Source of the DNA: Thermoplasmatota archaeon
Lineage (GTDB): Archaea; Thermoplasmatota; Thermoplasmata; Halarchaeoplasmatales; Halarchaeoplasmataceae
Direction: 5' to 3'
Length of the DNA: 35,930 nt
Assembly: GCA_018334755.1 (NCBI GenBank)
Contig: JAGXLI010000015.1
Location: forward strand, 1-35,930
The first letter of the stretch is position 1, and every line of letters begins with the position of its first letter. Positions 28,713 to 32,654 of the stretch are shown in pieces. A program made the translations under genes and the position numbers. The notes under the pieces were generated by a model, which searched no databases, was not told the origin of the DNA, and saw only the letters and a program-made list of their open reading frames with translations.

Positions 28713-29972
28713 GTGATGAAGATGAAAAAATATCTGAAGTCCTTTAGAAGAAGATCGCTGCTTATCCTAGTTCTGATACTCATCTTTCTCTCATTTTCTG
28801 TTCCAAGCTCAAAAGCATTTAAAACAGCTCCAGATTTTACAGTAGAAACTTCTGCCGGGGAAGAATTCACCCTCTCTGAGCAGGATGATCCCATTATCAT
28901 AGAATTCATGAGTCCTTTATGCATAGAATGCAAGGAGATGGAGGATAGGCTTCAAAATCTTCATCCAAACTACAAGGAAGATCTCATCTTTTTGAGTATA
29001 GATATAAGTGATCCTTCACCGGAAGAACTACTGGAATTGAAAAAAGAAAGAGACATCCCTTGGGATCTCGCTAGTGGAGATGCAGAAATGTTCTCCGAAT
29101 ATCAAGGTACTTCCGTACCTAAGCTGGTGATAATCGATTCAGAAGGTTATCTCACCTTTGAAGAAAACGGACTCGTCGAACAGGACAAGATAAAAGAAGA
29201 GATGGAAGATGTTATCGAGGGGACGGCCGAACGACAGGGTTTGAAGGAATACAGTATATATGGGATAGCTATTTTAGGCGGTATAACCTCATTCTTTTCG
29301 CCCTGTTCATTCCCGCTTTTACCGTCCTATATAGCTTATTATATCCGGCCTGAGGGAGGTACGAACAGAGAAAGGAAAAAGAAGGAGAGAAAGGGTAAAG
29401 AGGCACTAGAGGGAATAAAGATGGGTCTTAAAACCTCACTGGGTATAGTCATCGTTTTTGGCATCGTAGGCATCTTCGTCATAAGTGGAGGTCGATGGGT
29501 CAATGAATATATTCCTTATCTTCAACTCTTAGTCGGAGGAATAATAGCGTTACTCGGTATTTTGCTTCTGATCGATATTGAGATAAATCCCTACATCGAC
29601 TTTCTAAAGATGAAATTGAAGAAAGCTTTACCCTCTAAAACAGATAACAAAAGAGAAAAAGAGGATGGCTCTACGGATCCCTTCTATTATGGGTTGGGTT
29701 ACGGAGCTAGCTCAGTGGGATGTACCGCTCCTGTATTTGCCGCTGTTCTATTGGCTTCCTGGCTCTCTAACGGAGTAGTTGGAGCTTTCACCATACTATT
29801 CCTTTATCTGATAACCATGGTCATTTTGATGGTGAGCCTCTCGATCCTTATCGTTTACATGAAGAAAGAGATCACTAAAGAGCTGAACAAAGTGATCAGG
29901 CCCCTGAATTATATCTCTGGGGCTGTTCTTTTGATCGGTGGAATCTATCTGATCTATACATTTCACTTTTAG
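28713..29972 (+). CDS. Thioredoxin-like / CcdA (DsbD-type) fusion thiol-disulfide membrane protein
   Basis: N-terminal EFMSPLCIECKEMEDRL redox motif; C-terminal GGITSFFSPCSFPLLPSYIAYY and YGLGYGASSVGCTAPVFAAVLLASWL CcdA motifs. Confidence 0.88.
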   Translation: MMKMKKYLKSFRRRSLLILVLILIFLSFSVPSSKAFKTAPDFTVETSAGEEFTLSEQDDPIIIEFMSPLCIECKEMEDRLQNLHPNYKEDLIFLSIDISDPSPEELLELKKERDIPWDLASGDAEMFSEYQGTSVPKLVIIDSEGYLTFEENGLVEQDKIKEEMEDVIEGTAERQGLKEYSIYGIAILGGITSFFSPCSFPLLPSYIAYYIRPEGGTNRERKKKERKGKEALEGIKMGLKTSLGIVIVFGIVGIFVISGGRWVNEYIPYLQLLVGGIIALLGILLLIDIEINPYIDFLKMKLKKALPSKTDNKREKEDGSTDPFYYGLGYGASSVGCTAPVFAAVLLASWLSNGVVGAFTILFLYLITMVILMVSLSILIVYMKKEITKELNKVIRPLNYISGAVLLIGGIYLIYTFHF

Positions 29973-32163: not shown

Positions 32164-32364
32164 GTGATAAAGATGGAAGTGGAAGTAGAAGATGAAGGCA
32201 AAGTCTGCGTTTCCGATAACAGCGACGTTTCCACGCTGCTGGAGAAGCTCGATTATCATCTTGATTCAGTGATCGTACTTTCTGACGATGAACCGGTACC
32301 GTTAGATCATCCATTGAAAGAAGATATGAAACTAAAGATCGTCTCGGTGGTATCCGGCGGTTAA
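32164..32364 (+). CDS. Ubiquitin-like / SAMP-ThiS-MoaD-type small protein ending in Gly-Gly
   Basis: MIKMEVEVEDEGKVCVSDNSDVSTLLEKLDYHLDSVIVLSDDEPVPLDHPLKEDMKLKIVSVVSGG*; beta-grasp spacing and C-terminal GG. Confidence 0.75.
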   Translation: MIKMEVEVEDEGKVCVSDNSDVSTLLEKLDYHLDSVIVLSDDEPVPLDHPLKEDMKLKIVSVVSGG

Positions 32365-32388
32365 CCCTTTTGAACTAGTCTTGGAAAA

Positions 32389-32398
32389 CTTATAAATA
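32389..32398 (+). promoter_or_regulatory. TATA box of the 5S rRNA gene
   Basis: cttataaata ~30 nt upstream of the inferred 5S 5' end. Confidence 0.65.
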
Positions 32399-32422: not shown

Positions 32423-32654
32423 GAGCAACTGACGGCCAGAGCGGTGGGGTAACACCTGGTCCCATTCCGAACCCAGAAGTTAAGTCCACCAGCGTGCTCT
32501 GTGGTACTGTGGTGCGCGAGCCCACGGGACGCTTAGGTCCCATAGTGTGGACCCCTGGAACGACGGCTTAGGCCCGGAGTCTTGCTCTCTTCGGGGAGCA
32601 AGATAAACCGGACTGTTTGAAGGTCACCGTTCCCTGGCCCGCTGTCAGTTGCTC
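32423..32654 (+). rRNA. 5S rRNA with ~100-nt internal expansion (approximately 32530-32631)
   Basis: Canonical 5S core GGCCAGAGCGGTGGGGTAACACCTGGTCCCATTCCGAACCCAGAAGTTAAGTCCACCAGCG...GTACTGTGGTGCGCGAGCCCACGGGA; terminal helix gagcaactgacggc (32423-32436)/gctgtcagttgctc (32641-32654) spans 232 nt. Confidence 0.85.

Follow-up and report, generated by a model that had tools for sequence, protein, structure and literature searches.

The 5S rRNA is a textbook invariant of the ribosome, normally about 120 bases long. The window analysed here, a stretch of 35,930 nucleotides from the Thermoplasmatota contig JAGXLI010000015.1, carries a 5S gene whose two helix I strands are separated by 204 nt (Table 1). 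The gene is solitary, with a gene for a SAMP2-like protein on one side and convergent aIF2-gamma and eS6 genes on the other. The SAMP2/ThiS-like product, encoded just 5' of the 5S at 32164-32364, is a small ubiquitin-fold protein with a C-terminal GG; elsewhere in the window, at 28713-29972, an AhpC/thioredoxin-like domain is joined to a DsbD/CcdA-type membrane region in one protein. Direct reading places the TATA box at 32390-32398, and each of the 12 family members compared has an A/T-rich TATA-like box at that spacing, the rest of the upstream DNA being dissimilar. An earlier note, made from the window alone, had described a 5S core, a 14-bp helix I, an insert and a TATA box, and all four were found at the positions it gave.

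Table 1 Features of the expanded 5S rRNA locus (window coordinates).
Feature	Position	Strand	Description
Promoter	32383..32398	+	purine-rich BRE-like GGAAAAC and TATA box TTATAAATA; ~25-33 nt upstream of 5S start
Expanded 5S rRNA gene	32423..32654	+	232 nt; RF00001 match and helix I complementarity
Helix I, 5' strand	32423..32436	+	14 bp with 32641-32654, complementary except one G.U
Helix V outer segment, 5' strand	32494..32498	+	pairs with 32636-32640; 32495.32639 mismatched in window
Unperturbed core: helix V inner end, loop E, helix IV	32501..32532	+	G32501-C32532; helix IV 32507-32515 with 32520-32527
Expansion segment	32533..32636	+	~104 nt; matched by insert-only covariance models
P1 hairpin	32536..32553	+	stem 32536-32540 with 32549-32553, GGUCC/GGACC
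P2 stem of long arm	32557..32633	+	32557-32567 with 32623-32633; two mismatches in window
P2/P3 internal loop, 5' side (UAG)	32569..32571	+	A and G identical in 71/71 aligned copies
P3 stem	32571..32614	+	32571-32577 with 32608-32614; one mismatch in window
P4 distal stem	32581..32602	+	32581-32589 with 32594-32602; UUCG loop 32590-32593
P2/P3 internal loop, 3' side (GUUUGAA)	32615..32621	+	G 100%, U 99%, A 99%, A 97%
Helix V outer segment, 3' strand	32636..32640	+	immediately 3' of insert
Helix I, 3' strand	32641..32654	+	GCTGTCAG motif also ends normal and expanded relatives

The RF00001 search that the earlier note had proposed matched the 5S at 32428-32547 with 68 bits (E 4e-13, above the gathering score of 38), but the model built the helix I 3' strand from insert bases and thus misplaced the end of the gene. 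The same misannotation has been described for all archaeal expanded 5S genes (PMC7812874). Comparative alignment revealed helix IV to be paired in 100% of cells and the outer segment of helix V in 86%, with one pair of the latter varying between U-A, G-C and A-U. This outer segment is weaker in the window's family than elsewhere, two of its five pairs being mismatched in most members. Helix I has 14 bp in this family, more than in those relatives with an ordinary 5S whose sequences were read by eye. The fold of the 232-nt RNA has an energy of -109.9 kcal/mol (z = -4.5 against shuffles).

The insert interrupts helix V in its 3' strand, at a point lying between loop E and the three-way junction; numbered by hand with normal relatives as reference, exact to 1-2 nt, it falls between C102 and ~104.1. 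An insert-only covariance model built from 25 sequences (R1) scored the window insert at 69 bits, and a wider model (R3) at 74.8 bits, the window sequence being in both training sets. Overall, the consensus fold consists of the outer segment of helix V, a four-way junction, inner helix V with loop E and helix IV, the hairpin P1, and a long arm made up of P2, an internal loop, P3, a further internal loop and P4. RNAalifold on 33 sequences yielded 34 pairs, and 23 of these show compensatory changes; with outer helix V added, there were 39 pairs, 94% of cells were paired, and 242 compensatory cells were counted against 79 in shuffled data. An initial MAFFT alignment of the inserts put P2 and P4 of the window's family in the wrong place, and a model-fitted alignment was therefore used. 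Across its 70 distinct inserts, 91.2% of the cells in 29 pairs were paired, with 553 compensatory cells; shuffles gave 184 ± 13, and sliding the structure no more than 128. This alignment was fitted to the structure; the unfitted alignment of 39 pairs agrees with it.

Support extends to the individual stems. P1 is 94% paired with compensatory changes in all 5 pairs, every pair of P2 varies, nearly all with compensatory changes, and P3 is 97.6% paired with compensatory changes in 5 of its 6 pairs. P4 is frequently capped by UUCG, and both it and the length of the arm are variable among carriers. Three stems that had been read in the window alone, ccgg/ccgg (P3), CUUGCUCUC-UUCG-GGGAGCAAG (P4) and ggaacg/cgttcc (P2), are thereby supported by comparative evidence. 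A fourth, gggac-gcttag-gtccc, was rejected for want of conservation: nearly all relatives have GGGAAGC there, and P1 takes its place. The P2/P3 internal loop has the consensus UAG/YGYUNNAA, in which A, G and G are at 100% and the other U, A and A at 97-99%. These unpaired bases rank among the most conserved positions of the insert, while the stems flanking them vary.

Only one 5S match was found in the window's genome assembly, and no second 5S was found in this draft (112 contigs, 93% complete), which agrees with the gene being the only 5S. Assembly error, which the earlier note had listed as a possible refutation, is ruled out, since all congeners and family members with a recovered 5S have the insert. 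Re-examination of 76 genomes of the class showed the expanded 5S to be practically always the sole 5S, the exceptions being G010 and G124 (contamination), G162 (two expanded copies) and G065 (a second match at a contig end). In both G010 and G124 the extra normal 5S comes after the end of a bacterial 23S rRNA and was set aside as a contaminant. In G069 and G139 the 5S and the insert are on separate contigs, both at contig ends, so that the gene had been broken by assembly. A free-standing insert in G451, detected as a second R1 match, was rejected as a truncated duplicate of the 5S 3' half with downstream DNA; this 5S remnant, made by duplication, lies at L161:8430-8560, ~2.5 kb past the rRNA operon.

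To establish the distribution of the insert, 5S genes were searched in 60 relatives and aligned by eye. The same insert occupies the same place in all of the window's congeners and family members with a recovered 5S, and further families of the class have it too. Related Thermoplasmata families (f4-f6, f9-f13, f15-f17 and f20) have an ordinary 5S of ~122 nt, which shares the core, loop E, helix IV and the helix I 3' motif with the window gene but has no insert and a continuous helix V. In tests on held-out sequences, R1 found members of the window's family and of two other families with E of 1e-8 to 1e-15, and L039 more weakly (E 6e-4). Within the class it matched 75 of 400 genomes, in families f1, f3, f8, f14, f18, f19, f21, f23, f24 and f27. 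Outside the class it matched 22 genomes of families f48 and f60, which have one 5S each, save for one genome without a 5S match. In the three of these that were inspected, the insert lies inside the 5S; in the remainder with a 5S match, its coordinates directly adjoin it. R3 adds one genome, for a total of 98 surveyed Thermoplasmatota genomes. Twelve families were identified by model, with f2 and f7 added by eye (f2 reaching only E 5e-4). A weak second R3 match at L089:132-218 on the minus strand (15.5 bits, E 0.05), ~1.6 kb from the expanded 5S of the same contig, is probably due to chance.

A DNA pattern scan of named genomes revealed further carriers, including Ca. Sysuiplasma superficiale, many MAGs labelled 'Euryarchaeota archaeon' or 'Thermoplasmata archaeon', and Ca. 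Saliniplasma halalkaliphilum (order Ca. Halarchaeoplasmatales), which belongs to the window's family. The Great Salt Lake MAG GSL3510_9 and the sediment MAG T1Sed10_119m, also carriers, are congeners of the window genome (G004 and G001). The expanded 5S is thus a feature common to at least 12 families of Thermoplasmatota and is not peculiar to the window genome. No earlier report of an expanded 5S in Thermoplasmatota was found in the open-licence literature, to which our search was confined; others cannot be excluded.

We mapped the expanded and normal states onto a tree of EF-2, RpoA1 and RpoB from 30 genomes, built by a quick method; a tree of EF-2 alone was discarded, being poorly resolved and containing one wrong ORF. 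In L198 (G022), the EF-2 match lies in an open frame of 1053 aa and is split after roughly residue 44, as it would be by an intein. The 30-genome tree requires at least six changes of state, three of them forced by well supported branches, and the normal families f6 and f20 are nested inside expanded ones. As one homologous insert is present in all carriers, an old gain followed by repeated loss is the simplest account, although transfer is not excluded. The basal position of the window's family may reflect composition.

The anatomy of the gene, its single copy in the assembly, its conserved secondary structure and promoter, and its wide distribution are all observed. We consider it highly probable that this is a sole 5S bearing a retained rRNA expansion segment, an outward arm with a docking motif; retention, protrusion and docking are inferences. 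In size and structure the insert fits the definition of a prokaryotic 5S expansion segment, namely 13-109 nt with extensive internal pairing on an intact core; retention in the mature 5S, which also belongs to that definition, is here an inference (Stepanov and Fox 2021). In the mechanism we propose, the gene would be transcribed alone from the TATA box at 32390, and the core would fold normally with the four-way junction opening helix V. P1 and the long arm P2-P3-P4 would then point away from the large subunit, judging by the same site in Halococcus. As this is the only 5S in the genome, its incorporation into the large subunit is to be expected. The insert presumably stays in the mature ribosome, an inference made without RNA data from the Halococcus analogy, the single-copy status and the conservation. 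The P2/P3 loop most likely forms a fixed 3D motif with a docking partner, which could be a ribosomal protein, part of the 23S rRNA or a factor associated with the ribosome; this is unproven, no partner is known, and the invariant loop is its sole basis. The arm must be dispensable in principle, because many relatives have a normal 5S, having either lost it or never acquired it.

We weighed retention against excision, in which the insert would be removed from the precursor as an intron or intervening sequence to leave a normal 5S. Archaeal rRNA introns do exist, and retention has been proven only for Halococcus and Thermoanaerobacterium, a warning given in PMC7812874. However, the equivalent Halococcus insert is itself retained, and constant size and structure in 12 families, covarying stems and an invariant loop all speak against excision, as does a consensus structure with a four-way junction and not a bulge-helix-bulge (no formal scan was made). 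Removal of the insert would moreover leave GGGAAGC+GGAAC where normal relatives have GGGAAGCAGGGAUC, a helix V 3' strand about 2 residues short, so this is not a clean insertion; we therefore regard an intron as very unlikely. Harder still to credit, and close to negligible in our estimate, is that the gene is a 5S pseudogene or an assembly artefact with a working 5S elsewhere. The draft (112 contigs, 93% complete) could have missed another copy, and a truncated 5S remnant does exist in the relative G451. Yet the same gene occurs in four congeners and many independent assemblies with one 5S each, the extra normal genes of G010 and G124 are bacterial contamination, and the window copy, with promoter and core intact and both helix I strands present, has none of the marks of a pseudogene or remnant.

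The arm could also be a neutral structural passenger, folded enough to spare the 5S and without a function of its own. Many related families do without it, well supported branches of the tree demand three or more switches between the two states, and arm length and P4 vary, all of which such a passenger would allow. What it would not lead one to expect are unpaired bases that are invariant across families and beyond the window's class, or compensatory changes in nearly every pair, and we consider it rather unlikely, though a good deal less so than excision. The last exhaustive survey doubted that archaeal 5S expansions are of general adaptive value (PMC7812874). That at least 12 families, in and out of one class, have kept an arm whose unpaired motif is invariant speaks for a genuine role in the ribosome, and the motif names the bases to mutate. 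The feature has escaped notice because 5S models place the gene's end within the insert and most carriers are uncultured. Taken together, this analysis describes a ~100-nt arm of the 5S in a large, mostly uncultured archaeal group outside Halobacteriales, whose function and in vivo retention are unproven.

The supersized expansion segments of Asgard archaea are known from the large rRNAs and are not known from 5S. Like the present arm, they are a case of archaeal rRNA that has grown in a lineage-specific way (Penev et al. 2020, cited in PMC12918454). The Thermoanaerobacterium insert is likewise folded within a working 5S, but is bacterial, shorter (41-46 nt), located at positions 52-53 in helix III, and unrelated (PMC7812874). 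In archaea, 5S expansions have been described only from 15 Halobacteriales strains of four genera, and are limited to taxa of subfamily rank; their inserts are 108 nt long, lie between 104.1 and 105, and form an asymmetric V of a hairpin and a long unbranched arm, and horizontal transfer among haloarchaea has been suggested for them (PMC7812874). In Halococcus, the insert is retained in total RNA, and cryo-EM revealed a four-way junction and a flexible protrusion from the subunit (PMC7530397, PMC7812874), with faint density toward helix 38 of 23S rRNA that the authors could not distinguish from noise (PMC7530397).

The window gene resembles this Halococcus/Halalkalicoccus type in having a nearly equal size (231 vs 232 nt in total), a four-way junction, a short hairpin with a long unbranched arm, and the status of sole 5S type in the cell. 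The earlier note had correctly recognised an expanded 5S in an organism other than Halococcus, and the insert is indeed of a different sequence family. Its suggestion of a different position was not upheld, the site matching that of Halobacteriales (104.1/105) to within 1-2 nt. The most conserved part is the distal stem-loop in the Halococcus/Halalkalicoccus type, whereas it is the P2/P3 internal loop in Thermoplasmatota, and the former is known from 15 strains of four genera, the latter from at least 98 genomes in 12 or more families.

Models linked the two types only weakly. R1 scored the insert of L070 (Halalkalicoccus) at 14.7 bits (E 0.04, not significant) and had no match in 298 genomes of the Halobacteria phylum, though the set includes a carrier of the other type. 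For L070, L077, L075 and L095, R3 picked out the insert as the best place in each locus, but with E of 0.17-2.9; in L070 the internal loop was aligned, GUUACAA against GUUUGAA. Its scores on other-type inserts were 9.3-13.6 bits, the best structured-rRNA control region reaching 8.9, and in L072 and L081 the insert was not the best site of the locus. The reverse model R2 gave the L026 insert 10.8 bits (E 1.9) and did not significantly find Thermoplasmatota inserts. L081, a contig labelled 'Bacteroidetes bacterium QS_9_68_14', bears a haloarchaeal expanded 5S and is probably mis-binned.

Halococcus-type inserts are also carried by the Hikarchaeia L075 and L077 (Marine Group IV, HikBin4 and HikBin5) and by the nearly identical L095. 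As Hikarchaeia are the sister class, this type is probably more ancient than Halobacteria and independent of high salt, and the origin of the Halococcus insert has become testable. For the Thermoplasmatota and Halococcus types, the evidence for common descent is suggestive and no proof; the two could also have converged on that site of archaeal 5S which is least hindered. It is conceivable, although we lean against it, that the inserts of Thermoplasmatota and of Halobacteria and Hikarchaeia are one ancient 5S arm, which predated the split of the phyla or was passed between them and was lost many times. If so, the large subunit of archaea would once have had, over a wide range, a conserved part that bears a docking motif of its own, as opposed to scattered accidental expansions.
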